From the IMG/VR virus record IMGVR_UViG_3300022413_000026, positions 1 to 35,686 of that record: a stretch of DNA of 35,686 nucleotides. One strand, given 5' to 3'. This DNA comes from a virus. Every line of letters begins with the position of its first letter. Positions within the stretch are counted from its first letter, which is position 1. The translations under genes were made by a program, and so were the position numbers. The notes under the pieces were generated by a model, which saw only the letters and a list, made by a program, of their open reading frames with translations, had not been told where the DNA came from and ran no database searches. Positions 6,883-30,138 of the stretch are shown here, in pieces.

Positions 6883-6919
6883 CGACCTACCTACACCGGT
6901 CCCTTGCCTGGAGGCCACT

Positions 6920-8059
6920 ATGAATACCTTTGACCGTATCATCAGCGACATGCGCTTCTGCCTTGATAACCCGGCCGAGTTCACCGGCCGCAATGGCTTC
7001 TCACTCACCAGCGCCATGCGCACCGTCGTCGCGCTCAACCCTGGCGTCGTCCGTGATGAGTTTGTCCAGGCACTCGGCGCGATGGGGTACAACACCGAGA
7101 CCGTGGCGCGCCAGTTCCGTGCGTCCCGCAAGCTTGACCAGGAGACAACGACCATGAGCACCAAGACCCACAGCGAAGACCTGTCCTTCTCCGACCTGGA
7201 AGACCCTGGCGAATGGACCAAGCAGACCCAGGTCCACGGCAAGGCCGTCGAGCCCATCAACGACGACATCGCCGCCATCACCCTGGGCACCGGCCAGAAC
7301 GAGGCCACCACGGCACGCTACGAAGAAAGCTGCCACAAGTGCCGGGGCTCCGGTCTCTTTCGTGGCTACTCCGGGCGCATCGTCGGTGACTGCTTCGCGT
7401 GCAAGGGCAAGGGCAAGCTCTACTACAAGACGTCGCCCGAGACCCGCCAGGCGCGCAAGGACTACAGTGCCAAACGCAAGGCCAAGAAGGCCACCGAGAA
7501 GGCTGCCGCCCTGGCCTCGTGGTCCGACGAACACGCCACCGAGGTGGCATACCTGAAGGCACGCGCCGGCCGTTGGAACTTCGCCGACTCCCTGCTTGAG
7601 AACCTCGGCAAGTTCGGCTCCCTCACGCCGGGGCAGCTTGCGGCCGTTCGCAAGTGCATGGACAAGGACGCCGAGAAGGCTGCCGCTGCCAAGGTTGCCC
7701 CGGACACCGGGCTCGACCTGTCCGGCGTCCCGTCCGGTTTGTACGCTGTCCCCGACGGCGAGACCCGGCTCAAGCTGCGCATCGCCCGTCCCCGGAAGCC
7801 GTCGAACTGGCACGGGTACATCTTCGTCAGCGACGGCGCCGAGTACGGCTCACGGACAAACTACGGGCGCCAGGCTCCGGGGCAGTCCTACTCGGGCAAG
7901 TGCATCGAACAGCTGCGCGCCGTTGCCACGGACCCCGCCGCCGCGATGGCCGCTTACGGTCACCTCACCGGCACGTGTGGCAAGTGCGGTCGCAAGCTCG
8001 AAGACGAGGAAAGCGTGGCACGCGGCATCGGTCCGGTCTGTGCCAAAAAGATGGGCTGA
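6920..8059 (+). CDS. Zinc-ribbon protein with DUF6011-like C-terminus
   Basis: A 379-residue protein with three visible parts. Residues 1-75 resemble the helical module of the two preceding genes, ending in ETVARQFRASRK. Residues about 135-170 hold two CxxCxGxG knuckles (CHKCRGSG and CFACKGKG), a DnaJ-type zinc finger, followed by a Lys/Ala-rich helix. The last ~110 residues end with CGKCGRKLEDEESVARGIG then PVC, the signature of the DUF6011 family found in many phages and actinobacteria. The role is unknown; zinc binding is well supported by the cysteine spacing. The DUF6011 name is a recall of the motif. ATG at 6920 follows GGAGG by about 6 bases. Confidence 0.75.
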   Translation: MNTFDRIISDMRFCLDNPAEFTGRNGFSLTSAMRTVVALNPGVVRDEFVQALGAMGYNTETVARQFRASRKLDQETTTMSTKTHSEDLSFSDLEDPGEWTKQTQVHGKAVEPINDDIAAITLGTGQNEATTARYEESCHKCRGSGLFRGYSGRIVGDCFACKGKGKLYYKTSPETRQARKDYSAKRKAKKATEKAAALASWSDEHATEVAYLKARAGRWNFADSLLENLGKFGSLTPGQLAAVRKCMDKDAEKAAAAKVAPDTGLDLSGVPSGLYAVPDGETRLKLRIARPRKPSNWHGYIFVSDGAEYGSRTNYGRQAPGQSYSGKCIEQLRAVATDPAAAMAAYGHLTGTCGKCGRKLEDEESVARGIGPVCAKKMG

Positions 8060-8121
8060 GGACGGCCCACTACCAGGGCCAGGGACGGCCCACTACCAGG
8101 GCCAGGGACGGCCCACCACTT
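8053..8121 (+). repeat. 23-bp tandem repeat forming GGGCC hairpins
   Basis: A 23-base unit beginning GACGGCCCACTACC is repeated at 8061-8083 and 8084-8106, with a partial third copy at 8107-8121. Each junction reads GGGC, six bases, then GGCCCAC, so three hairpins of the type also found at 6148 can form. They lie between the stop of the zinc-ribbon gene and the start of the gene at 8133. There is no T-run, which makes a processing or mRNA-stability role more likely than termination. Confidence 0.7.
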
Positions 8122-8132
8122 GAGGTTCCACT

Positions 8133-8537
8133 ATGGGATACGCAACAACGCTCGTAAGCACCAACGAACAAATCGACACGGTAGGCCGCATGCTTCGTCC
8201 GGGGCAACAAATCAACGTAGCCAAGTTGGCTGCGCAATTAGGTTGGACCAAGGACCGGCTCCACCCGGTTAAACGGGAGATGATGCGGCGCGGCTTCCTG
8301 ACCGAGGAACGTCGCGCACGTATGTCGGCAACGTTGACGTTCCACAACCCGCCACTGCCTGAGAGCGAACGCCAGATGCCTAAGATGCGACACACGGCGA
8401 AGGCCACCCCGGAGACGGGGGCTCGACCCTGGCAATGCCACACGGTCAAGACCTGGACCATCACGGGTGGCACGTTCACGGCTGAAGAACTCAAGAGCCT
8501 TGCCCGGTCTGTGCTGAAGCACTTGGATGAGCTCTAG
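8133..8537 (+). CDS. Small winged-helix-like protein
   Basis: A 134-residue protein with GAGG about 8 bases before its ATG. The segment at residues 27-65 (INVAKLAAQLGWTKDRL followed by a second helix and a strand) has the length and spacing of a winged helix-turn-helix. The C-terminal third is unlike anything I recognise. Its TAG is directly followed by the queE ATG with no gap, so it probably heads the deazaguanine operon. A regulatory role is an inference from the fold guess and position. Confidence 0.6.
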   Translation: MGYATTLVSTNEQIDTVGRMLRPGQQINVAKLAAQLGWTKDRLHPVKREMMRRGFLTEERRARMSATLTFHNPPLPESERQMPKMRHTAKATPETGARPWQCHTVKTWTITGGTFTAEELKSLARSVLKHLDEL

Positions 8538-9236
8538 ATGTTCGGCGACAACCCCATCCGCAAACAAGTAGACGATGACAAGCTCTGGGTCCAATCCATC
8601 TTCTACACGCTGCAAGGCGAGGGACCCTTTGCCGGTACGCCGGCTGTGTTCATACGCCTTGCCGGTTGTAACCTTCGCTGCTGGTGGTGTGACACGGAGT
8701 TCGAGTCCGGGTTCCAGGACCCGGACAACTATCAGGACGTGGCAACAATCGCCCGCCAGGCTCTCGACCTGTCCACACCCTGCGACCTTGTCGTACTCAC
8801 GGGTGGCGAACCACTGCGACAGAACGTTGGCCCGTTGATGGACAAGCTGTTGGATATGGGCTTCCGTGTCCAGGTTGAAACGGCTGGCACCGTCATGCCG
8901 GACGACGTCCCGCTGACGCACCCGAACCTGTACATCGTCTGCTCACCCAAGACCCCGAAGCTGCATAAACTCATGGTTCACGCGGCAGCATGGAAGTACA
9001 TCATCCGAGCCGACGACGTGGACGATGCGGACGGGTTGCCAATCGAGTCCACGCAAACCAGGGGCCTGGCAGTACCACCGGCACGTCCGACAAACAGCGC
9101 ACCCGTGTTCGTATCTCCGTGTGACGAATACGACCCGGCTGCTAATCAACGCAACCTGCAAGCTGCCGCACGAGCGTGCCTTGAATATGGATACCGACTC
9201 ACCACCCAACTACACAAAGGAATAGGGCTGCCATGA
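8538..9236 (+). CDS. queE: 7-carboxy-7-deazaguanine synthase QueE (radical SAM)
   Basis: QueE converts 6-carboxytetrahydropterin to 7-carboxy-7-deazaguanine, the third step to preQ0. The radical SAM cluster is complete at C44, C48 and C51 in CNLRCWWC, preceded by FYTLQGEGPFAG, the QueE hallmark. The SAM-binding GGEP lies at 89-92, and the C-terminal QLHKGIGLP is typical of the family. At 232 residues it has the usual length. It overlaps queD by 4 bases (ATGA). The operon context with queD, queC, folE and dpdA shows it serves DNA modification rather than tRNA queuosine. Confidence 0.95.
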   Translation: MFGDNPIRKQVDDDKLWVQSIFYTLQGEGPFAGTPAVFIRLAGCNLRCWWCDTEFESGFQDPDNYQDVATIARQALDLSTPCDLVVLTGGEPLRQNVGPLMDKLLDMGFRVQVETAGTVMPDDVPLTHPNLYIVCSPKTPKLHKLMVHAAAWKYIIRADDVDDADGLPIESTQTRGLAVPPARPTNSAPVFVSPCDEYDPAANQRNLQAAARACLEYGYRLTTQLHKGIGLP

Positions 9237-9661
9237 TATCAGTCACCAAACAATACCGCGCCGAGATTGGCCACCGTCTCATGAACTACGACGGCAAGTG
9301 TGCCCACCTCCACGGGCACAGTTATCTGTTCGAGGTCACAGTGGAGGCGTTGGACCTCGATGACCGGGGCATGGTGGTGGACTTCTCCGACCTGAAGAAA
9401 GCCATGCGGATTGTGCTCGAGCCGTACGACCATGCCCTGGTGCTACGTGACGACGACCACCTCGCACGGATGTTCGAGGACCTCCGTGCTACGAACGGTG
9501 AGTCTGCCCGCCTTCACTTGTGGGCGAACAACCCCACAGCCGAGAACATGGCATCGCGATTCGGCTCACTCATCGACAACATGCTTCCACGTGGTGTGCG
9601 TCTCACCCATATCCGCGTATGGGAAACCGCCACCAGTCACGCAGACTGGAGTCCGTCATGA
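9233..9661 (+). CDS. queD: 6-carboxytetrahydropterin synthase QueD
   Basis: QueD turns dihydroneopterin triphosphate into 6-carboxytetrahydropterin. The zinc ligands H14, H27 and H29 are visible (EIGHRL and CAHLHGHSY), the catalytic C23 lies in the same motif, DHALV supplies the second catalytic residue, and the PTAENMA segment matches the family's late glutamate motif. At 142 residues the length is slightly above average. It overlaps queE and queC by 4 bases each. Confidence 0.95.
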   Translation: MISVTKQYRAEIGHRLMNYDGKCAHLHGHSYLFEVTVEALDLDDRGMVVDFSDLKKAMRIVLEPYDHALVLRDDDHLARMFEDLRATNGESARLHLWANNPTAENMASRFGSLIDNMLPRGVRLTHIRVWETATSHADWSPS

Positions 9662-10323
9662 AAGTCGTCGTCAGTTACTCGGGCGGCATGGACAGCTACA
9701 CGCTGCTGCATGACGCCGTTCACCAGGGCCACGAGGTGTCCGCGTTGTCGTTCAACTATCGACAGCGCCACGTGGTCGAGCTCGAAAACTCCGTCACGGT
9801 TTGCGAGATGCTCGGCGTCCCGCATCAGCTGGTAGATATCGAGTTCCTCCACGAGCTCGCCAGTAACTCAGCCCTGACGCATGGCATGGACGTGCCCGAG
9901 GGACACTACACCGACGCCAGCATGCGGAAGACCGTGGTGCCCAATCGCAACATGGTGTTTACGTCCATCGCAATCGCACACGCGGTCAACCTGGAGATGG
10001 ACGAAGTGTGGCTCGGACAACATGCCGGCGACCACGCCGTGTACCCGGATTGCAGACCGGCCTTCGTGGCACTGATGGACGGCGTGGCGCAGATTGCGAA
10101 CTGGCACCCGGTTCGAGTTCGGGCACCGTATCAAGACCTGGACAAGACCGGCATTCTTACCCGTGGCCAGGCCATCGGCCTGGGACCGCACCACTACGCC
10201 GACACGTGGACGTGCTACCAGCCACAGGGCTACACGGCGTGCGGTAAGTGCGGCAGCTGTACCGAACGGCTGGAAGCGTTTGACGCTGTCGGCTGGGCCG
10301 ACCCACTGGAGTATGCACAGTGA
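9658..10323 (+). CDS. queC: 7-cyano-7-deazaguanine (preQ0) synthase QueC
   Basis: QueC uses ATP and ammonia to convert 7-carboxy-7-deazaguanine to preQ0. The PP-loop SGGMDS is at residues 8-13, and the C-terminal zinc site is C186, C195, C198 and C201 ([16 protein letters not shown]). At 221 residues it is of normal length and shows no added amidotransferase (Gat) domain of the kind some phages use to make preQ1-like or formamidine bases. The ATG at 9658 overlaps the queD stop (ATGA); the same frame opens further upstream but has no better start. Confidence 0.95.
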
Positions 10324-11219
10324 CTCACGAGACCTACTACGTACAGCACGGAGACCTCCAACGACGCGCGGCGGAGATTGCAACGCAGCTTACGCCTGGG
10401 GTTGCTTTGTACGGCATCCCTCGCGGCGGCATCCCCGCCATGTACGCTGTGATGGCAATGAAGGACCGGCGCGGCCCCTTTCGTATCACCAGCCACCCGC
10501 AAGATGCCGACGTCTTCATTGACGACATCATCGACAGCGGGGCAACCAGAGCCACGTTTGCACATCGGTTCCCCGGTGTCCCGTTCCATGCCTTGTACGA
10601 CAAAAGTGGAGCGGACAAGGACATGCGAGGCTTATGGCACGTCTTCCCCTGGGAGGACAGCGAAGAATTTTCAGCCGACGATATCTGCACACGCCTGCTC
10701 CAGTTCATCGGCGAAGACCCGACACGCGGCGGCCTCAAGGAAACACCGGCACGGTTCTTGAAAGCCTGGCGGCACTGGACCAAGGGCTACGGCGAAGACC
10801 CCGCCGAGGTGCTGAAGACCTTCGAGGACGGCGCCGCCAACTATGACGAGATGGTGGTGGAGAAGAACATCCCGGCATGGTCGACCTGTGAACACCATCT
10901 TGCTGCTGTTCGTGGTGTGGCTCACGTTGGCTACATTCCTAACGGCAAGATTGTGGGGCTCAGTAAGCTGAACAGGCTCGTTGACACGTTCGGCCGTCGG
11001 CTCCAGGTACAGGAACGATGGACGACACAGATTGCCGATGCCCTGGTCCAACACCTGAACCCGAAAGGTGTTGCCGTTGTCATCGAGGCCGAGCACATGT
11101 GTATGTCATCTCGGGGCGTGTGTCACCAGGACGCCACCACCATCACATCCGCGATGCGTGGTGCGTTGATGGACAAGCCCGAGGCTCGAGCGGAGTTCTT
11201 GAGACTAATCGGCAAATGA
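10320..11219 (+). CDS. folE: Phosphoribosyltransferase-GTP cyclohydrolase I (FolE) fusion
   Basis: Residues about 119-299 are a GTP cyclohydrolase [18 protein letters not shown] at 130-146, the zinc ligands C190 and H193 in CEHHL and C261 in MCMSSRGV, and the conserved [10 protein letters not shown] stretch. It makes dihydroneopterin triphosphate from GTP for QueD. Residues 1-110 are a short type I phosphoribosyltransferase-like domain with GIPRGG at 32-37 and the PRPP loop [13 protein letters not shown] at 65-77. GTP cyclohydrolase I normally has no such domain. Its starting GTG overlaps queC by 4 bases and its end overlaps dpdA by 4. Reading through both domains shows no frameshift, so this looks like a true fusion. 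What the first domain does is unknown. Confidence 0.9.
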
Positions 11220-12124
11220 AAACAGAAGGCGTAAAGGTTGGACGCTGCCAGCGTATCTACTTGGCATCAGTCTATGCGACTGGACGGTATTACGTTGAGC
11301 CGGTGGCAGACTACGCATACATCCTGGAGTCGTACCACTACATCGGCAACGCACCTAACAGGCAGGACCTGTTAAGAGAACACAGCTGCCGTATCTTCTT
11401 GGACTCCGGTGCGTTCTCCGCGTTTACCTTGGGCACGTCTGTAGATATTCAGGCATACGCACGGTTCATTGTAGAGAACAAGGACATTGTTGACGTGGCG
11501 TCCGTGTTGGACGGCATCGGCGATGCACAACTAACGCTAGACAATCAACACCGACTAGAGGACCTCGGTGCTACCGTGTTGCCGTGCTTTCATTTTGGCG
11601 AAGACACCAAGTACCTGGAACACTACCTCAACAACTATGACCACATCACAATCGGCGGGATGGTTCCAATAAGCAACAGCCAGTTGCGACCGTGGCTGGA
11701 CCACTTGTGGTCGACGTACTTGACCGACAGCGCCGGGTGGCCACTGGTCAAGGTGCACGGGTTCGGGCTGACCGCTATGGACCTCGTCCGGAGGTATCCG
11801 TGGTACTCCGTGGACTCGTCATCGTGGGTCCAATCCGGGGCATTCGGACACGTCGCGTTGATTACTGATGGCGGGATGATTAAGACCGTAACCGTGTCCG
11901 AGCAAAGTCCGAACGTGCACGATAGCAATCAGCATTACGACAACATGCCGCCATACGTTCAGGACTGCCTGCGCGAAGACATAGAACAGTATGGCTACGA
12001 CATCGACACGCTGCGTACAGATATCCGAGCACGCAAACAACACAACGCCAAGGTCTACGCAGCCCTTGGCACGCGCGAACTGTTTCCCTACACCACCACC
12101 ACCACCGGAGACTTGTTCCAATGA
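11216..12124 (+). CDS. dpdA: DpdA-like DNA guanine transglycosylase
   Basis: A 302-residue relative of tRNA-guanine transglycosylase, of the phage DpdA type that swaps guanine in DNA for a 7-deazaguanine base. Visible family motifs are [10 protein letters not shown] at 61-70 (a catalytic Asp candidate), a DGIGD segment, the IGGMVP turn, KVHGFG and a YSVDSSSW strand. The zinc-binding Cys cluster of true tRNA enzymes is not evident, which fits DpdA. The ATG at 11216 overlaps folE. The operon shows its substrate should be preQ0. The exact base and sequence context modified cannot be read from DNA alone. Confidence 0.85.
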
Positions 12125-16654: not shown

Positions 16655-17824
16655 TTAGAAATTCGTGAACGTCGTTTGCCATGATTCCGTATCGGACCCC
16701 TCGCTGTTCGTGGCCTGAATGTCGAACGTCACGGTTTCCTCTACCACTGCGGTGTAGTCAACTTTGCCGGAGCTCCCGACGATCGTCGCCCCGGCCGGTG
16801 CCGAAACAAAAGACCACACCACGACGGGATCGCCCACGTCGAGCGACGGCGTGCGCGTGTAGGGCACGAACACGGTGCCGGCATCATCACCGAGCGCGTC
16901 GATCACCGGCGCCACAACGCCGCCGGTGTCAACAATCGTCAACGCTTGCAGATTGCCAGCCATCGCCGCCGAGGTGTCCTCCACGGCCGCAGTGAATAGA
17001 TTGCGGCGATCAATCTGCTTCAGGTTCGAGTCGTTCTTCAGGTAAGCGTTGTTGTCGTCGTCGACCGCGAGCCCCTCCCGGAATCCGATATCCGCGTCGA
17101 AGTCAGCCGACGGAACGGCAACAAGCGCGGCGGTGTACGCAGCATGATAGGGATAGGTTGTGCCGTCGCGACGCGTGACATAGAGATAGGTCAGGCCACG
17201 CGCGAGCTTGTCAGGCCGTTCTTCGCTGGTCGTAAAATTGCCGAGCGCCAGGCTATCGAGAACCGTCAGCGTTGCCGGGTTGATTTTATGCAGCGTGATA
17301 TCCCGCGTCGCGTCGCCCGGGTCGATACTGGTCAGCGCGAACAGACTGCCGGCGAGCGTCGTCAAGCCCAGCATATCCGTAAACACACCACCGGGCACCC
17401 CATCCTCTAATTGCAGCGAGTCCAGCAGGTCCCCATTGTTCGGATCACGCGCCTCAATCCATGTTTCCTTATTCAGGTTGATGCTCGTGCCAATGAACAC
17501 CCGCTCGCCGACGTAGGCGCACGCGCGCGTGATTCCGGTGATGTTCTTATCCCACAGCAGATTAGCGCCGGTGTCCCACGCGGTGAGATCGTTGCCCGCC
17601 GTGCATATGAAAAACGTGCCACTGGTAGACACCGCGTCAATGTCACCGGCCGCTGCCTTGCCCGTAGCAATCGGGCCGCGGCCGGTGTCGAGCGTATCGA
17701 GGTCAAACGTGTAGATGTTGCCGGCGTTGTCCATCGCCAGGAGCGAGCCCACGAAAAAGTCAGCAGGGAAACTGACGCCGACCCAGTTCCGGAACGGCCC
17801 CTCGTCGTAGATGACGGTACTCAT
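16655..17824 (-). CDS. Probable tail fiber/adhesin, beta-propeller-like with Ig-like C-terminus
   Basis: A 389-residue protein. Residues about 25-290 contain several strand-rich repeats with patterns like LLAMDNAGNIYTFD, FFICTAGNDLTAWD and VDDDNNAYLKN, typical of PQQ/WD-like propeller blades. The last ~85 residues (TPSLDVGDPVVVWSFVSAPA onward) look like an Ig/PKD-type domain. It is the last large gene of the tail cluster, where receptor-binding proteins often lie. Its DNA has six GATC sites in 1.17 kb, unlike most of the genome, which marks it as recently acquired. The ATG overlaps the previous stop (TAATG). No catalytic residues are seen. Confidence 0.65.
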   Translation of the reverse strand: MSTVIYDEGPFRNWVGVSFPADFFVGSLLAMDNAGNIYTFDLDTLDTGRGPIATGKAAAGDIDAVSTSGTFFICTAGNDLTAWDTGANLLWDKNITGITRACAYVGERVFIGTSINLNKETWIEARDPNNGDLLDSLQLEDGVPGGVFTDMLGLTTLAGSLFALTSIDPGDATRDITLHKINPATLTVLDSLALGNFTTSEERPDKLARGLTYLYVTRRDGTTYPYHAAYTAALVAVPSADFDADIGFREGLAVDDDNNAYLKNDSNLKQIDRRNLFTAAVEDTSAAMAGNLQALTIVDTGGVVAPVIDALGDDAGTVFVPYTRTPSLDVGDPVVVWSFVSAPAGATIVGSSGKVDYTAVVEETVTFDIQATNSEGSDTESWQTTFTNF

Positions 17825-23485: not shown

Positions 23486-23817
23486 GTGTCTTGTTCCTTG
23501 ACCATGAGTTCGAGCAGCACGTTGCGATCGTTCGGGTTGATGGGTCCGCCCACTATGTTGAACACGCGGCTGTCACAGGCATCCACCACACGATAGCTGG
23601 AATCAACAGACGATTGATACCGGATAACGATACGATGCGTGGTCTGCCCTTGCACCTGGGCGTTCTCGAAGTACTCACGGCCACGCAAGGGCTCGATGGA
23701 ACCCCACACCGTGGCCGTTGTCGTCCACACATCCGTATAGCCACCGGACGCTGTGCGTGTTTGGTTTGTTTGCTGGAGATGCAAACGGCGCCGCAGTCTG
23801 CCTGCTCGAATCCTCAT
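23482..23817 (-). CDS. Head closure / head-tail joining protein
   Basis: A 111-residue strand-rich protein with the pattern of the SPP1 gp16/HK97 head-closure family: RRRLHLQQ, SGGYTDVWTT, then VWGSIEPLRGREYF and RIVIRYQ. It closes the portal exit after packaging and accepts the tail. Position and size fit. Confidence 0.85.
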   Translation of the reverse strand: MRIRAGRLRRRLHLQQTNQTRTASGGYTDVWTTTATVWGSIEPLRGREYFENAQVQGQTTHRIVIRYQSSVDSSYRVVDACDSRVFNIVGGPINPNDRNVLLELMVKEQDT

Positions 23818-24413
23818 GAAAGCTCGATGACCCGATACGGTGACAGCAACGCGTTCACACCCATAGGCAGCTCACTGACGATGGTACCGATGACGGTATG
23901 CTCTCGGTTCTCGTACCAGTTGCCAATAAGCAGCAGCATTGCCTGGCGTAGTGGAGCCGGCACGGCAGCTTGTAATCCGTACCCGGCAACGAACCGAATA
24001 GTCACGGCGTCGCGTATGTCACGGGTTCCAGGCCAAGACGAGTTATAGGCAAGGTCCACCCGAGGGCGCCACGTCTTGTCCGCGCTTAACGCATAGTTGC
24101 TCGCGTCGAACGTCTGCGTGTTGCCGTCCACATCCACGTAGCTAATCGAGGTAATGGACTGAATCGGAGGCAGTGGCAACCGGATGAAATCCACCACCGG
24201 GAACTCGTCTAGAAACAGGTCCCACGTGGCCGTTATCATCTGCCGCCCGAGATAACCGTCCCGCCCGTCCAGCACTTCCCGAGCTGCCGCAATAAGACCC
24301 TCGATGGCCGCGTCCTCGATGCCGTCGGTGCATTCGGACGCGCGGATGTGGTCTCGAGCCTCCACGAGGGACAGCGGCTCGACAGCTGGTGCAGTTACAA
24401 GCTCAAGTGACAT
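23814..24413 (-). CDS. Head-tail connector (gp6-like)
   Basis: A 199-residue protein of the gp6-like connector family, with an N-terminal helical domain (SLVEARDHIRA, IEGLIAAAREVLDGRDGYL), a strand-rich middle and a C-terminal PLRQAMLLLIGNWYENRE helix characteristic of the family. It forms the adaptor ring below the portal. It overlaps the neighbouring genes by 11 and 4 bases. Confidence 0.85.
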   Translation of the reverse strand: MSLELVTAPAVEPLSLVEARDHIRASECTDGIEDAAIEGLIAAAREVLDGRDGYLGRQMITATWDLFLDEFPVVDFIRLPLPPIQSITSISYVDVDGNTQTFDASNYALSADKTWRPRVDLAYNSSWPGTRDIRDAVTIRFVAGYGLQAAVPAPLRQAMLLLIGNWYENREHTVIGTIVSELPMGVNALLSPYRVIELS

Positions 24414-24705
24414 TAGACCGCCTCACCCATCGTTCGGAAGAAACCGCAGCCACTAAGGCGCCGCCGCCGGACCACTCGATGAAGTGGCGCCCTTCTTGGC
24501 TGTACGTGTAGTCGTAGTAGTAGACGCCTACACCGGAGTTGGTGACAAGCACGGGGCTGTCCGTGTTCACAGCCGTTACCGTGGCACCGTCCGGTGGGCG
24601 TACCTTGATTGTCACCGTCGTCGGGTCAGCCGCCGCCCCGTTGATATCGGTAAACGTCACCGTGAACCGTTCCCGGTCATCAATGTCGCGTGCAATGGTG
24701 GGCAT
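24403..24705 (-). CDS. Ig-like small structural protein
   Basis: A 100-residue strand-rich protein (ERFTVTFTDI, TVTIKVRPPDG, YYYDYTYSQEGRHF) that reads as one Ig-like or bacterial Ig-type domain. Such proteins decorate heads or accompany connectors. AGGAG lies 7 bases before the ATG at 24705. It separates the repeat protein from the connector genes. Confidence 0.65.
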   Translation of the reverse strand: MPTIARDIDDRERFTVTFTDINGAAADPTTVTIKVRPPDGATVTAVNTDSPVLVTNSGVGVYYYDYTYSQEGRHFIEWSGGGALVAAVSSERWVRRSNVT

Positions 24706-24713
24706 GGCTACTC

Positions 24714-26705
24714 CTAACTCATGACGGCGCCGCGAACGGCACAGGTTTCCACAGCGCCGCTTATGGTACCCGCGAAAGCGGCTTCGCCTGGCTGCAGCAA
24801 TCCGGGGTTAAACACCACCACGGGTGACGCCGTGTCCGTCTCCGTGGCGCCAGTGACGGCCACGGTGAGAGTACCGAGGCTGATAGTGACGGCGAAGGCG
24901 GTGTCCGTCTCGGTCGCGCCAGTGACAACGACGACGTCACCTTGACCCACCGTGACAGCGGAGGCCGTGTCCGTCTCCGTCGCCCCGGTGACAGCGACCG
25001 TGAGGGCACCAAGAGAGACCGTGACAGCCGAGGCGGTGTCCGTCTCGGTAACTCCACCGGCGGAGACGGTGAGCGTACCGAGGGAGACGGTGACAGCAGC
25101 AGCGGTGTCCGTCTCGGTGACGGCACCAACAGCAACGAACTGCCCGCCCTGGTCCACCGTGACCGCCGAGGCGGTGTCCGTCTCCGTGGCACCAGTGACG
25201 GCGACGGTGAGAGTACCAAGACCCACCGTGACGCTGGCTGCCGTGTCGGTCTCGGTAACGGCACCAACAGCAACGAACTGCCCGCCCTGGTCCACCGTGA
25301 CGCTGGCTGCGGTATCGGTCTCGGTCGCCCCGGTGACGGAGACGGTAAGAGCCCCGAGACCTACCGTGACAGCCGACGCCGTGTCCGTCTCGGTCGCGCC
25401 AGTGACGGCCACGGTGAGGGTACCGAGGGAGACGGTGGCGCCGAAGGCCGTGTCCGTCTCCGTGGCGCCAGTGACGGCCACGGTGAGAGTACCGAGACCT
25501 ACCGTGACAGCCGACGCGGTGTCCGTTTCGGTAACGGCGCCGACGGAGACCGTGAGCGTACCGAGGGAGACGGTGGCGCCGAAGGCGGTATCGGTCTCAC
25601 TCGCGCCAGTGACGGCGATGTTCTGCCCGCCCTGGTCCACCGTGACAGCCGACGCGGTGTCCGTCTCACTGGCGCCGGTGACGGCGACGGTGAGCGTGCC
25701 GAGGGAGACGGTGGCAGCGAAGGCCGTGTCCGTCTCGGTGGCTACACCGGGGACCACATCGAGAGTGCCGAGACTAACCGTGACAGCCGACGCAGTGTCC
25801 GTCTCGGTAACGGCGCCGACGGAGACGGTGAGCGTACCGAGGGAGACCGTGACAGCAGCAGCCGTGTCCGTTTCCGTGGCGCCGGTGACGGCTATTGACT
25901 GGCCACCGCCGGCCACAGGCAACGAGTAAAGCGGTGGCCGCACACCGTAAACAAAGCCGAAAGGATTATCCCTCAGATAAGCACTCTCGCGGGCGTCGAG
26001 CACCCGATCCGCCCACATGCCTACATAAGCGATCCCACCGTCCCAGGTTTTTTCCTGCGCAGCCCACGACGGCGCGGCGAGACCGATCGCCAGATCCGCC
26101 GTCGTGGTCGGGAATGTGGCAACGTCCGTTACCGAATCGGAAGTCTGATCAACGCCGTCGACGTAAATCGTGCCGGTGGTCCCGGATCTGGTGACGACGT
26201 AATCGCGCCATTCCTCCGCGAACTGGTTATCGGCATCGAACTGGTTGGCGTCGCCGTCAAACCGGCACACCACGCGATTAGCCGTCTCATAGACCGTATA
26301 CCCGCCGCCGCCACTGCCGGCGGTTGACTTGTCCAGGATGCGGATAAAATTCTCATTGTGTCCCGTCTCATCAAAATACGCCCGGAACGCCCATGTCGCA
26401 CTGGACAAGCCCGACAGGGACCAGGGGTCGCTCGCGGTGACGCTAGGCCAGTACCAGCCGCCGGTATCCACCGCGCCCGGCGACCAGTAAACAAAGGAAT
26501 CTGTGTGCTTGTGCCGTTTCGGCTGGTTCTGAACGACCCCGGCGCGCGCGAGCATCGACCGCCCGGTAACAGCGTCGATGCAGTAGTTACCACCGAACAA
26601 CCAGAAGCCAACCAGCCCTTCGGCCAGCGGATGCTGACGATCGACCGCGTACGGCCAGGCAGGCGCGAGGTTGGAATTATTGCTTCGCGTGCGAGAGGGG
26701 CGCAT
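24714..26705 (-). CDS. LamG-like protein with 16 tandem 23-residue repeats
   Basis: A 663-residue protein. Residues about 30-255 look like a concanavalin A/LamG fold (LVGFWLFGGNY near the start, GTIYVDGVDQ, a WDGGIAYVGMWADRVL end strand). From about residue 265 to 635 there are 16 imperfect copies of a ~23-residue unit around ETDTA. The unit alternates VTGATETDTA, VSLGTLTV and occasional DQGGQ variants. The protein ends with a short Cys-containing tail. LamG domains bind carbohydrate, so a surface-exposed decoration or adhesin role is likely. The LamG half has many GATC sites and the repeat half has none, so the gene may be a hybrid. Confidence 0.75.
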   Translation of the reverse strand: MRPSRTRSNNSNLAPAWPYAVDRQHPLAEGLVGFWLFGGNYCIDAVTGRSMLARAGVVQNQPKRHKHTDSFVYWSPGAVDTGGWYWPSVTASDPWSLSGLSSATWAFRAYFDETGHNENFIRILDKSTAGSGGGGYTVYETANRVVCRFDGDANQFDADNQFAEEWRDYVVTRSGTTGTIYVDGVDQTSDSVTDVATFPTTTADLAIGLAAPSWAAQEKTWDGGIAYVGMWADRVLDARESAYLRDNPFGFVYGVRPPLYSLPVAGGGQSIAVTGATETDTAAAVTVSLGTLTVSVGAVTETDTASAVTVSLGTLDVVPGVATETDTAFAATVSLGTLTVAVTGASETDTASAVTVDQGGQNIAVTGASETDTAFGATVSLGTLTVSVGAVTETDTASAVTVGLGTLTVAVTGATETDTAFGATVSLGTLTVAVTGATETDTASAVTVGLGALTVSVTGATETDTAASVTVDQGGQFVAVGAVTETDTAASVTVGLGTLTVAVTGATETDTASAVTVDQGGQFVAVGAVTETDTAAAVTVSLGTLTVSAGGVTETDTASAVTVSLGALTVAVTGATETDTASAVTVGQGDVVVVTGATETDTAFAVTISLGTLTVAVTGATETDTASPVVVFNPGLLQPGEAAFAGTISGAVETCAVRGAVMS
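24805..25905 (-). repeat. Tandem array of 16 ~69-bp units
   Basis: Sixteen tandem units encoding the ETDTA repeats of the LamG protein. They share long identical stretches, so copy number can change by slippage or recombination. They also create long meaningless open frames on the other strand. Confidence 0.85.
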
Positions 26706-26714
26706 CAGGCGCGC

Positions 26715-27221
26715 TCACACCGAATCCAACTCTATGCCGGTGTACTCCAGGTGATTGTTTGTCCCCGTGCCATGAAACGCCGCGCCTGTGTTGTTGTGGA
26801 TTACCACGCACCACTCGAGAGGCATCTGCCCGCTAAACGCCGCCGCGACCGAAAACGGACCAAACAATATATCGGTGTTGTCGTCGGTCGCGGCAGTATT
26901 CGCAATGCCCAGCAGGCGCAACTGACGATATCCATCGACATGGGTGCTGCCGGTGGTCCCCCATGTAATGTCCGCGTCCCCCGCGTCGACGCCAGCCGTG
27001 AAGTCAACGCCGTCCCATGAACCCGCCACGTAAATGTCGATCTGCCCCGCCGCGGCGAGGGTTCCCGCCTGAATCGATCCGCCCACCAGCGCATCGATAT
27101 AAAGGTTTACCTGATTATCCACCAGTGCGCTACTGCACCATGTGTCGTCGTTATTCCCATCCGCCGACGTGATCGCGATCGCGGTAGCAATCGCTTGGTA
27201 ACTGGTATTCAGTGTCGCCAT
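26715..27221 (-). CDS. Probable structural protein, 168 aa
   Basis: A strand-rich, Gly/Ala/Asp-rich protein (QIDIYVAGSWDG, YRQLRLLGIAN, GPFSVAAAF) of the type common between capsid and connector genes in phages. No named domain. It is in the segment with unusually many GATC sites. The ATG overlaps the previous stop (TGATG). Confidence 0.6.
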   Translation of the reverse strand: MATLNTSYQAIATAIAITSADGNNDDTWCSSALVDNQVNLYIDALVGGSIQAGTLAAAGQIDIYVAGSWDGVDFTAGVDAGDADITWGTTGSTHVDGYRQLRLLGIANTAATDDNTDILFGPFSVAAAFSGQMPLEWCVVIHNNTGAAFHGTGTNNHLEYTGIELDSV

Positions 27222-27670
27222 CAGCTATCCCTCGCCGCCGTCCAGTCCTCGCGGCTGATCACAGTTCCCTGACCGAAAAGCACCTCGGCACGCGATAACG
27301 CCACCGTTTGCGCGTCAAGTGCCGACACAGTAGTGGAATTAGGGATCAGGGCGAACAGTGCCCGGAATTGCGCCTTGTACTGCGCGATCTCAATCCCAGA
27401 GCCGAACACCTCGACCAGAGTATGAACATAGTTGGCAAGCCCGGGCGGTGCCTGCTGGGCGTCGAGGTCCTGCGGATCATACGCGTCCATCATCGACTCC
27501 ACGTCAAACAGCCGTCCGGCAGTATCACCGCCGACGTTTAATGCGGCGTCATTCAAGAGCTTCAATAGCGGTTGCGTCGGTCCCGACGCGTCATAGCCCA
27601 TAGCGATCGGATCAGTCGTCACCTCGGTCTGCAACGACAAGAGATCAGCCGGATCCCCGCGATCGAACAT
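27221..27670 (-). CDS. Probable phage structural protein, 149 aa
   Basis: The start (DRGDPADLLSLQTEVTTDP), the NVGGDTAGRLFDVESMM middle and the ALSRAEVLFGQGT end match a set of phage proteins of unknown function that I recall beside capsid genes. GGGAG lies about 7 bases before the ATG. It is the first gene of the segment with high GATC density. Confidence 0.65.
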   Translation of the reverse strand: MFDRGDPADLLSLQTEVTTDPIAMGYDASGPTQPLLKLLNDAALNVGGDTAGRLFDVESMMDAYDPQDLDAQQAPPGLANYVHTLVEVFGSGIEIAQYKAQFRALFALIPNSTTVSALDAQTVALSRAEVLFGQGTVISREDWTAARDS

Positions 27671-27697: not shown

Positions 27698-28162
27698 CTA
27701 TGCTGCGGTGAATACGTCCGCTCCGAACTGCGCTGTCACGTCGCTGCCGTTCGACGTCAGCACGAAGTCGTGGAACGTCAACGGAATCAGCGCCGCGTCC
27801 GCACTGGCGCCAGTGTCATCGTAGCAGACCACCATGCGTGTAATGCTCTCGCCGCCAGCCAGCGCCGTCCACGTGGTGTTCGGCAGCGTGTACGAATTGT
27901 CGTCCGCGCTGTCATCCGGCGCCGGTGTGGCCGCAAGGTCTACGTCAGTGAGGTCCTTGTCCACGTAGCTGCCATCCGTCGGCCGCGCAAGCGTCCCAGC
28001 CAACAACGCGGCGATGTCGTCGAACGCCTCGATGTCGTCATCGGCTTCCGTACCAGTGAAAAGAATCAGCGTAAGAACGCTGCCGGTTGGGTCGTTGGAC
28101 TTCACGCGATCGTAGTATTCTTTCGCGCGGCCTTTGGCAATGTTGCATACTCCGTCAGCCAT
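27698..28162 (-). CDS. Probable head decoration/structural protein, 154 aa
   Basis: Starts MADGVCNIAKGRAKEYYDRV and continues with SVLTLILFTG, a helix with an ALLAG segment, and strands ending in LIPLTFHDFVLTSNG. The pattern is typical of small structural proteins encoded downstream of HK97-type capsids. It overlaps the glycosyltransferase-like gene by 8 bases. GATC is again rare here, so it belongs to the resident genome. Confidence 0.6.
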   Translation of the reverse strand: MADGVCNIAKGRAKEYYDRVKSNDPTGSVLTLILFTGTEADDDIEAFDDIAALLAGTLARPTDGSYVDKDLTDVDLAATPAPDDSADDNSYTLPNTTWTALAGGESITRMVVCYDDTGASADAALIPLTFHDFVLTSNGSDVTAQFGADVFTAA

Positions 28163-28997
28163 AATTCATGCTCCTCAATTCGGTCCCGTTGCTTGTAGGC
28201 ATCGCGTGCCAGATGTTATCCCACGCTGCCCCACTTTCCACCTCGTTCTCCGTGAACTGAGACCACGCAAGGTCTGTGCACCAAGCGGCTCGGTCTGGGT
28301 ACTCAACCGGGAAGGCCACGTCATGAGTCGACACCGGCCACGCCATAGCACCCTCGTCCAGGGTAACAGTCGGCACACCGTAAAGAACAGCCTCAACGGC
28401 TGCCGTGGAATTGTGTGTCACAGCCATGCCCGCTCCAGACAAATCGCTCACCAGGGAATGTACACCGGCACGTTCGGCCTTGCCGGGGCAGAACGAACCC
28501 CGTGCCAAGGGATGAGGCCGAAACATCACCCGATGACCAAGGGCCACCAACTCCTCAACCAGCGCCTCAAGCCACAGGTTGTACGGGAGACGCAAGCCAG
28601 CTAGGGCGGCGTCCCCTACACACTGCCCCAGTACCAGCGTATAGCCCCCAGATACGCGCCAGGGCTTCACACAATGGCCCCAGTGACGTTCCCACCGTTC
28701 GCCCCTGTCCTGAGCCCTCGGATACGTTCCGTGGCGTCCCAGGCCATTCCAGCCACACGAGGCCCATTCCAGCCGGTTAGGTAGGTGCCCGGCCTCCATG
28801 ACCAGGACCGGTAGCCCGGCACGGCGTAGTTCAGCCCCAGCACGCCACCCCCAGCACACGGCAAAGTCACCCCCAGAGCCGGGCGCGCTTGTACGTAGTT
28901 CTACGTCTATGCCGTGCCGCTCGAGCCCGGCGGCCATCGCACCACACCAACGCTTGTGATGAGCCATACCCGGCGACATGACCACAGCGGCTCGCAT
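28155..28997 (-). CDS. Glycosyltransferase-like protein (GT-B/capsular polysaccharide type)
   Basis: A 280-residue protein with the C-terminal half of a GT-B-like sugar or phosphate-polymer transferase: VMFRPHP, then HNSTAAVEAVLYGVPTV with a following WPVS segment. This is the nucleotide-sugar binding pattern found in KpsC/CDP-glycerol type enzymes. It is an unusual gene within a structural operon, downstream of a methyltransferase and a DUF115-like gene, so it may glycosylate virion proteins or act on host surface. The ATG at 28997 shares its A with the previous stop (TGATG); GTG 29000 is an alternative. Confidence 0.62.
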   Translation of the reverse strand: MRAAVVMSPGMAHHKRWCGAMAAGLERHGIDVELRTSAPGSGGDFAVCWGWRAGAELRRAGLPVLVMEAGHLPNRLEWASCGWNGLGRHGTYPRAQDRGERWERHWGHCVKPWRVSGGYTLVLGQCVGDAALAGLRLPYNLWLEALVEELVALGHRVMFRPHPLARGSFCPGKAERAGVHSLVSDLSGAGMAVTHNSTAAVEAVLYGVPTVTLDEGAMAWPVSTHDVAFPVEYPDRAAWCTDLAWSQFTENEVESGAAWDNIWHAMPTSNGTELRSMNYG

Positions 28998-29569
28998 CAC
29001 ACATCCACCCGCCAGCCCTCGGACACATACTGACGCTGCTCACTGAGCCACGTAATCAAGGCCCCATCAAACCACCGGCGGAACATCCGGTCCCATTCGT
29101 CATACGCCCGAATGTTGATATGGAGGTCTTCGCCAGACGGCAGACGCGAGGGACGATTGTTCGCTGTCAGCACAACATGGCGCCGCGCGACGCGGTGTAA
29201 CTCACGGCACACAAGCTCATCATCTCCCGGTGGCAAATGTTCGATGACGTCAAACAGGCTAACGACGTCGAACGCATCATCCGGGAACGGCAAGTCATGG
29301 CCTTGGGCTTCGACCACGGTGCTGCCGTCAATGAGGTCCGCCACCACCTCCGTACCCTTGTAACTTGTGAAGCCAAGCTCGCGAGCATGTATCAGCATCT
29401 CACCCCGGCCGCACCCGACATCGAGATAGGTGCCCCGGCATGGAAGGTCGCGAAGGTCCTTGATGGCATCCACCATGCGACGGTCGCCCATTCTGTAGTT
29501 AGGCAGCTTGTACGCTACGTCGTACTTGGCCTGCTCGGCAGCTCGCACCGTGTCCATGATGGTTGTCAC
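28997..29569 (-). CDS. SAM-dependent methyltransferase
   Basis: A 190-residue class I methyltransferase: motif I YLDVGCGRGEML near residues 48-59, an acidic loop (GTEVV), and LPFPDDAFDVVSLFDVIEHL as motif II, the pattern of small-molecule/sugar methyltransferases. No DNA methyltransferase catalytic motif (DPPY/NPPY or PC) is seen, so this is unlikely to modify DNA. The GTG at 29569 has GAGGG 5 bases upstream and overlaps the previous stop (GTGA); an ATG at 29557 is an alternative. Confidence 0.8.
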   Translation of the reverse strand: MTTIMDTVRAAEQAKYDVAYKLPNYRMGDRRMVDAIKDLRDLPCRGTYLDVGCGRGEMLIHARELGFTSYKGTEVVADLIDGSTVVEAQGHDLPFPDDAFDVVSLFDVIEHLPPGDDELVCRELHRVARRHVVLTANNRPSRLPSGEDLHINIRAYDEWDRMFRRWFDGALITWLSEQRQYVSEGWRVDV

Positions 29570-30138
29570 AAGATGCCCTCTAGTTGGTGCTTGGGGAAAC
29601 AATGAAGCGCGCTGGTAGGCGTGCAGTTGATTACCTCCACGTCGGCGTCCGCGAGGTCTTCGACAGCACCCGCGAACGCCGCCACCCAGTTGTCGAAGTT
29701 ACGTTGCTGCGGATTGTTCAGCCCCTTGGGATGGTCACCGTGCCAATGGACGCGCCCCTCGGGCGAGGCCCCCATATCACAGCCCAACAACACAACACGG
29801 GAAGCACCCATCAGCATGACAAGGTTCAAAGCCTGAAACGTACTGTTGCAGCCCTGGTGTATGTACATCGGGTCAAAGGACAACCCCGGCCGGTCCCGGC
29901 TCTCGATGTGTTGCACACCGTTGCCGACATCATCCTGTGACACCTTGAGACCGGCAAACGTGGGACGTTCCACTTCCCACCACGTGGCGTCGCAGCCATA
30001 CAGAAGGTCAGCCCACGGGGCGAGCCGGTAGGTGGTGTTAATTACGGCCGTTCGCGCTTTGCCTTTGACGTACTCGACCTGCTCGCCGGTGAGCGACGGC
30101 CCGCTAGCGATGATTGCGACGGTTTCCCCTGGCCAGAT
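29566..30138 (-). CDS. DUF115/norphogenetic-like protein, start not resolved
   Basis: The frame reads IWPGETVAIIASGPSLTG at its start, then INTTYRLAPWADLLYGCDATWW, MYIHQGCNSTFQALNLVML and VVLLGCDMG. This is the pattern of the phage norphogenetic/DUF115-like family, whose members are often linked to surface glycosylation. The open frame runs back to 30249 without any ATG, GTG or TTG before the conserved region, and the next usable start (GTG at 29973) would delete ~55 conserved residues. The coordinates start at the first conserved codon (ATC 30138). A frameshift from the overlapping upstream gene, a non-standard start, or an indel are the choices. Confidence 0.7.
   Translation of the reverse strand: MWPGETVAIIASGPSLTGEQVEYVKGKARTAVINTTYRLAPWADLLYGCDATWWEVERPTFAGLKVSQDDVGNGVQHIESRDRPGLSFDPMYIHQGCNSTFQALNLVMLMGASRVVLLGCDMGASPEGRVHWHGDHPKGLNNPQQRNFDNWVAAFAGAVEDLADADVEVINCTPTSALHCFPKHQLEGIL

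Follow-up and report, generated by a model that had tools for sequence, protein, structure and literature searches.

A GATC-rich block of surface-type genes in a GATC-avoiding phage is probably a recent import

Why does a phage genome that is nearly free of GATC carry 20 of these sites within 1.7 kb? The question is raised by the IMG/VR virus record IMGVR_UViG_3300022413_000026, of which we analysed positions 1 to 35,686 (the window, 35,686 bp). The window covers the larger part of a tailed phage whose head module is of the HK97 type and in which terminase, portal, prohead protease, major head protein, head-tail adaptor, head closure and tape measure genes could be named by family match. The GATC-rich block lies on the minus strand and consists of gene 1 (27221..27670, 149 amino acids (aa)), gene 2 (26715..27221, 168 aa) and one half of gene 3 (25899..26705, residues 1-269 of a 663-aa protein), which encodes a LamG domain (Laminin_G_3, E=3.6e-8). 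A first-pass annotation made from the sequence alone had proposed that this block is a recent import, based on a hand count of about 20 GATC sites in 25981-27665 and about 13 in the genome outside this block and a second GATC-rich segment (16655-17824). Our analysis leads to much the same answer: the block is quite likely the core of a surface-protein locus that was recently acquired by recombination from a phage without GATC avoidance.

The exact figures equal those obtained by hand. The 39 GATC sites of the window are distributed as 20 in 25981-27665, 6 in 16655-17824 and 13 elsewhere. A second-order Markov model predicts 139.3 sites for the whole window, and the resulting ratio of 0.28 is the lowest of all 256 tetramers (the next lowest, CTCT, has 0.55). 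Without the two segments, 13 sites remain against 116.0 expected (ratio 0.11). The depletion was also found with a synonymous-codon null, in which the proteins were kept and the codons redrawn in their correct frames (1000 draws), using either the shuffled own codons or the resident codon usage: the 40 genes outside the segments possess 12 GATC versus 107.5±7.9 (own shuffle) or 114.7±9.4 (resident usage), and 31 of them have none. The three block genes contain 20 sites versus 11.4±2.2 (range 4-19) or 6.5±2.3 (range 1-14), respectively; nine of these are in gene 1 (5.2 or 2.7 expected), four in gene 2 and seven in the LamG half of gene 3 (4.1 or 2.1 expected). None of the Markov or codon nulls tried explained the depletion and the density together. 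A two-rate scan placed the best segment at 26006-27661 (20 sites), with twice the log-likelihood ratio (2lnLR) being 70.6 compared to a maximum of 28.7 in 300 random placements. This matches the previously proposed extent (LamG half plus two genes), with approximate limits, as extension of the block to 28108 is only 1.65 lnL units worse.

The 38 relatives identified via their major capsid protein, which are short contigs in many cases, have 0.79-1.26 of the expected GATC number and none avoids this site; therefore, GATC avoidance is peculiar to the window's lineage among the relatives compared. Among seven tape-measure relatives, four (L093-L096) are mildly low (0.59-0.73), and the ratios for the other three (L097-L099) are 0.81-1.01. 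Tiles of 1656 bp (231 tiles from 43 relatives) contain 12.4±4.7 GATC, with at least 20 sites in 18 of the 231 and 0 or 1 site in none. Neither the capsid relatives nor these tiles show the composition of the window. The density in the block is thus normal for non-avoiding phages, and it is therefore the rest of the genome that is anomalous.

GATC is not the only missing site. Outside both segments, CCATGG, CCCGGG, CCGCGG and TTCGAA are completely absent (expected 8.1, 13.2, 7.9 and 7.6, respectively), and CCATGG and TTCGAA are absent from the entire window. For hexamers with an expectation of at least 7, absence outside the segments was found for 4 of 30 palindromes versus 1 of 1859 other hexamers. 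In 41 relatives, there is no avoidance of these hexamers (observed/expected: CCATGG, 91/119; CCCGGG, 108/143; CCGCGG, 399/410; TTCGAA, 130/114). The only two CCCGGG and the only two CCGCGG sites of the window are located in the GATC-rich segments, one of each per segment. These hexamers were first picked outside the segments, and the choice was then repeated on the whole window (depletion p<0.005). This resulted in five depleted palindromes, with four of their seven leftover sites inside the two segments that represent 8% of the sequence (p=0.001); for other palindromic hexamers, 39 of 469 sites are inside. Note that depleted palindromes are common in phages (e.g., 11 of 49 in the L012 contig, 9 of 50 in Sulfitobacter phage M39).

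The codon usage of the block differs from that of the rest of the genome at codons unable to form GATC as well: AAC, 13/26 vs 289/330 (p=1e-5); GCG, 41/73 vs 279/1027 (p=7e-7). GAC differs too, 27/52 vs 523/684 (p=2e-4). The background includes, for the entries 9520-10323 and 11018-12124, in-frame codons upstream of the likely starts. Gene 2 (GCG 19/24) and the LamG half (AAC 5/11, GCG 14/29) both contribute to these values. Furthermore, several capsid relatives are nearer to the codon usage of the block than the resident genes are.

Three otherwise unrelated contigs (L012, L013, L015) carry genes 1, 2 and 3 (LamG) in this order. Homologs of genes 2 and 3 can be found in L022, and of the three genes L014 has only gene 2. 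In profile searches, run with each sequence left out of its own profile in turn, the gene 2 profile detected its homologs in L012, L013, L014, L015, L022 and the window (E 1e-36 to 7e-74), the LamG-half profile those in L012, L013, L015, L022 and the window (2e-6 to 5e-17), and the gene 1 profile those in L012 (1e-6), L013 (5e-4) and L015 (3e-8). In the third gene of L022, Pfam finds no LamG domain and the profile built from the other sequences does (8e-8); a gene 1 homolog in this contig was considered and rejected as unsupported (E=1.4). When 32 window proteins (8538-35639) were compared to the contigs of L012-L015 and L022, only gene 2 gave a match, besides a weak one (24%) for DNA polymerase in L020, which belongs to the same contig as L013. 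Matches of the block-homolog proteins to PHROG families are weak (best phrog_22373, 3.7e-6, for the L015 LamG gene; L014 gene 2 with phrog_4950, 'tail fiber', at 0.23).

The L015 contig avoids GATC to an extreme degree as well. L015 and L017 together make up 34,392 of the 34,421 bp of IMGVR_UViG_3300032212_000102 (GC 47-48%), and this contig possesses 0 GATC versus 120.5 expected, its own gene triple included. As the L015 triple does without any GATC, the cassette proteins do not require these sites. A 36-codon frame (9965-10075) located between gene 2 and the LamG gene of L015, and overlapping the start of the latter, terminates with the last part of another gene 2 copy (profile E=9e-9), a trace of exchange at such a locus. 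The window and L015 both lack GATC, CCATGG and CCGCGG. A shared host was considered for this reason and not accepted: the overlap may be due to chance, because many palindromes are depleted in L015 (12 of 50) and the L012 contig likewise lacks CCATGG and CCGCGG.

In the window, the block is part of a slot of five genes between a probable glycosyltransferase gene (28155..29000, minus strand; same-order homologs in capsid relatives; DUF6716 at E=0.005, below the Pfam cut-off) and the head-tail adaptor gene (23814..24413, minus strand; phrog_442, E=6.9e-27; Phage_connect_1). Both ends of this slot were found in five capsid relatives. It is empty in four of them (L054, L074, L075 and L076, the last called empty from match positions alone) and filled in L069 with five genes, coding for a small head or fibre protein (Pfam Gp80, 'Podophage GP4 fiber I'; phrog_240), two short proteins, a 544-aa protein and a homolog of the 100-aa product of 24403..24705 (minus strand). 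This last homolog adjoins the adaptor gene in L069 as in the window (blastp 1e-5, same two PHROG families), and the window gene is thus probably resident. At the other flank, the gene 27698..28162 (minus strand, 154 aa; phrog_26662, E=1.8e-25) has a homolog in the capsid relative L058 (phmmer 2e-27) and is probably resident too; no match in the PDB was found for its alignment at E≤0.1. The first slot gene of L069 (9871-10311) was examined as its kin and rejected (profile E=0.14, phmmer 0.083, different PHROGs). Profiles of the three block genes gave no match in the capsid relatives. Since both flanking genes have kin in the capsid relatives and the block genes have none there, the slot shows the pattern expected for a locus with stable flanks and an exchanged core. 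Other surface-type genes can be found near this position in relatives, i.e., a LamG gene in L090 and a CotH gene in L016, where a CotH-kinase protein (6910-9291, Pfam E=1e-31) is encoded between the capsid and adaptor genes (contig of a Burkholderiales metagenome-assembled genome).

Codon usage, missing palindromes, the occurrence of the triple in unrelated contigs and the emptied or refilled slot all agree with an imported segment, as had been suggested. The following history can be proposed, although the order of events is inferred. In this lineage, selection would have acted for a long time against GATC as well as some other palindromes of the restriction type, and a slot for surface-protein genes would have separated the head genes from the head-tail adaptor. 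Recombination would recently have replaced the core of this slot, from gene 1 to the LamG half, with a version from a non-avoiding phage, the flanking genes, and probably also the repeat half of gene 3, staying in place. The GATC, CCCGGG and CCGCGG sites of the block would then be those of the donor, not yet purged, and the gene at 16655-17824 would probably be a second such import.

Several observations weigh against this interpretation. The number of GATC in the block is above the shuffle of its own codons (20 vs 11.4, with a maximum of 19 in 1000 draws), an excess larger than in L003, L005 and L016 (ratio 1.2), which stays unexplained unless the donor was GATC-rich. At Thr, His and Tyr codons, the block shows no significant difference, and no single relative matches its codon usage in all codons. 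AGGCCT, the fifth depleted palindrome, has three sites, all outside the segments. The kinship of the window's gene 1 is weak (profile E=0.047, albeit the top match). Finally, the search for donor phages sharing the block, proposed along with the original claim, revealed no donor: the best protein identity was 66%, and there was no match at the DNA level. A DNA search of phages with 12001-35686 gave no match, and viral contigs yielded only the twin contig L001, which has the same arrangement as the window with 1 mismatch in 18,461 bp.

The limits of the block are approximate, with joins near the LamG/repeat border (~25.9-26.0 kb) and near the start of gene 1 (~27.66-28.1 kb), because no more than one or two GATC would be expected in the neighbouring sequences anyway. 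The gene 27698..28162 contains 1 GATC (1.4-1.8 expected) and the repeat half of gene 3 (24714..25898, minus strand) contains 0 (1.0-1.4 expected), so that both are uninformative for their origin in this respect. The repeat half, which is probably resident, is self-similar at 24826-25895, with tandem repeats of ~69 bp (23 codons), has GCG 12/68 in repeat copies that are not independent, and gave no Pfam match at E≤0.1.

What does the block encode? Genes 1 and 2 could not be placed in a described family, as neither matches PHROG or Pfam at E≤1, and there was no match for genes 1, 2 and the LamG half among 50,697 phage records at E≤0.01. The predicted structure of the gene 1 product was unusable (pLDDT 39.7). 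The model of the gene 2 product (pLDDT 75.7) is a predicted beta-sandwich. Its best match in the PDB had a Foldseek E-value of 2.2e-3, VIA-align gave a best Z of 9.5 for 6s44 (plant-virus capsid, 136 residues, 4.0 Å) followed by 9.4, and the best match in BFVD was the uncharacterised phage protein A0A6J5NIG3 (E 1.8e-8). We read these similarities as a common beta-sandwich only. Given its LamG domain and its location amid head genes, the block product could be a carbohydrate-binding, lectin-like fibre or decoration of the virion. Phages are known to exchange fibre and decoration genes. The window resembles such cases in having modular surface-type genes, one with a lectin-type domain, near the head-tail adaptor, and in the Gp80 protein in the L069 slot; it differs from the known fibre and decoration genes in that genes 1 and 2 lack a family. 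As the imported genes look like surface proteins, they may bear on host choice.

Which force removed the sites from the rest of the genome? Restriction is the best fit, given that the genome lacks several unrelated palindromic sites together. The earlier idea of a long pressure against GATC thus gains from the other missing restriction-type palindromes, in addition to the Markov and codon nulls. Avoidance of type II sites by phages, with GATC among the depleted palindromes, was reported by Rusinov et al. 2018 (PMC6286503). The window is similar to those phages in its strong depletion of palindromic type II sites, GATC included, and differs in that the avoidance is broken by two segments and accompanied by DNA-modification genes. 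According to the same article, five coliphages with hydroxymethylase avoid 2.4% of actual host sites, versus 55.8% in four without the enzyme. Alternatively, the avoidance of GATC could be caused by mismatch repair (MutH/Dam), the block still being an import; it is to mismatch repair that GATC avoidance in phiX174 and other coliphages has been tied (PMC5014478), with which the window shares the near-absence of GATC. However, the window lacks other palindromes too, which are not covered by MutH/Dam. We consider this alternative rather unlikely.

The modification genes form a 7-deazaguanine set (8538..12124, plus strand) encoding radical SAM/QueE-like, PTPS/QueD-like, QueC, GTP cyclohydrolase I and DpdA-like transglycosylase proteins. 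It was recognised by Pfam matches (radical SAM, PTPS, QueC, GTP cyclohydrolase) and phrog_887 (DpdA-type, E=3e-60); the names QueE, QueD and DpdA are our reading of family matches. Strong site avoidance and DNA-modification genes therefore coexist in one genome, and this combination bears on how two anti-restriction strategies are combined. One might imagine that the phage has moved from avoiding its sites to masking them, so that DpdA modification (or a change of host) now tolerates GATC-rich imports. If so, the avoidance would be a record of past restriction, the two segments would date the switch, and site-avoidance fingerprints could be read as a stratigraphy of module acquisition. Nevertheless, GATC does not occur in the 7-deazaguanine genes either (0 vs 10.7 or 12.6 in the codon null); for this reason, they appear either to have shared the avoidance or to have come from an avoiding source. 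Protection of GATC by DpdA is not assured either, considering that the DNA of the 7-deazaguanine phage MED16 resists MboI with its authors leaning to adenine methylation (PMC8306585) and that phage 9g DNA resists BamHI (PMC5567051). A switch from avoiding to masking is thus unlikely in our opinion.

Could the block instead be resident, its GATC sites being kept by selection as a functional GATC cluster or through protein constraint? The excess of GATC over the shuffle of its own codons would be consistent with this. On the other hand, synonymous changes could remove most of the sites, the codon usage differs at codons unrelated to GATC, CCCGGG and CCGCGG are present in the block as well, the GATC density is within the range of relatives, and the homologous genes of L015 do without GATC. 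A resident block is thus very unlikely; its variant with a functional GATC cluster is disfavoured by the codon usage and by the tile densities of the relatives.

Still less probable is that the avoidance itself is linked to the DpdA-type modification of the phage. The gene set is present, and one DpdA phage, R7M, is lowish in GATC (0.65 and 0.81). However, the ratios in 11 DpdA phages (chosen from 40 listed of 232 matching records; 20-40 kb of each) are 0.65-1.10, and on this ground DpdA was rejected as a general cause of GATC avoidance. Moreover, the L015 contig lacks GATC, and the QueC, DpdA and other pathway proteins of the window find no match there. An assembly chimera, i.e., a block from another phage joined in silico, would suit a record of metagenomic origin in which the composition changes at either end of the block, but it is hardly credible, as the second contig record L001 has the same joins (though perhaps from related reads), the left join falls within an uninterrupted 663-aa frame, and all the genes point the same way.

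The second GATC-rich gene (16655..17824, minus strand, 389 aa) contains 6 GATC, 1 CCCGGG and 1 CCGCGG and is a probable second import. Its GATC number corresponds to that of the codon nulls (5.7±1.8 with own shuffle, 4.8±1.9 with resident usage), a cluster of 6 sites such as that at 16781-17587 was reached by 0.6% of 500 random placements, and its codon usage includes AAC 13/20 and GCG 22/43. No homolog of the protein was found besides that in the twin contig. The first-pass annotation had listed this gene as a GATC-rich segment alongside the block; it stands as a similar case, with weaker support than the block.

Phage mosaicism, the exchange of surface genes and site avoidance are all known. 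In the literature on GATC avoidance, mosaic imports, LamG fibres and 7-deazaguanine, no title or beginning of an abstract among the matches listed describes this phage or cassette. Tetranucleotide deviation has been used as a sign of transfer in mycobacteriophages (PMC4841201), just as a local tetranucleotide break is used here; in their subcluster B3, GATC is over-used four times genome-wide, and the deviation in the window is local. The locus is a clean example of recent recombination in a phage being marked by that phage's own restriction history, and a break in site avoidance may serve as a marker of recent imports that needs no donor.

Finally, sialyltransferase-like, methyltransferase and glycosyltransferase-like genes are located inside the head module at 28155-29973, next to the slot. 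The first of them is present in 16 of the 38 capsid relatives, and the three perhaps constitute a virion glycosylation set.

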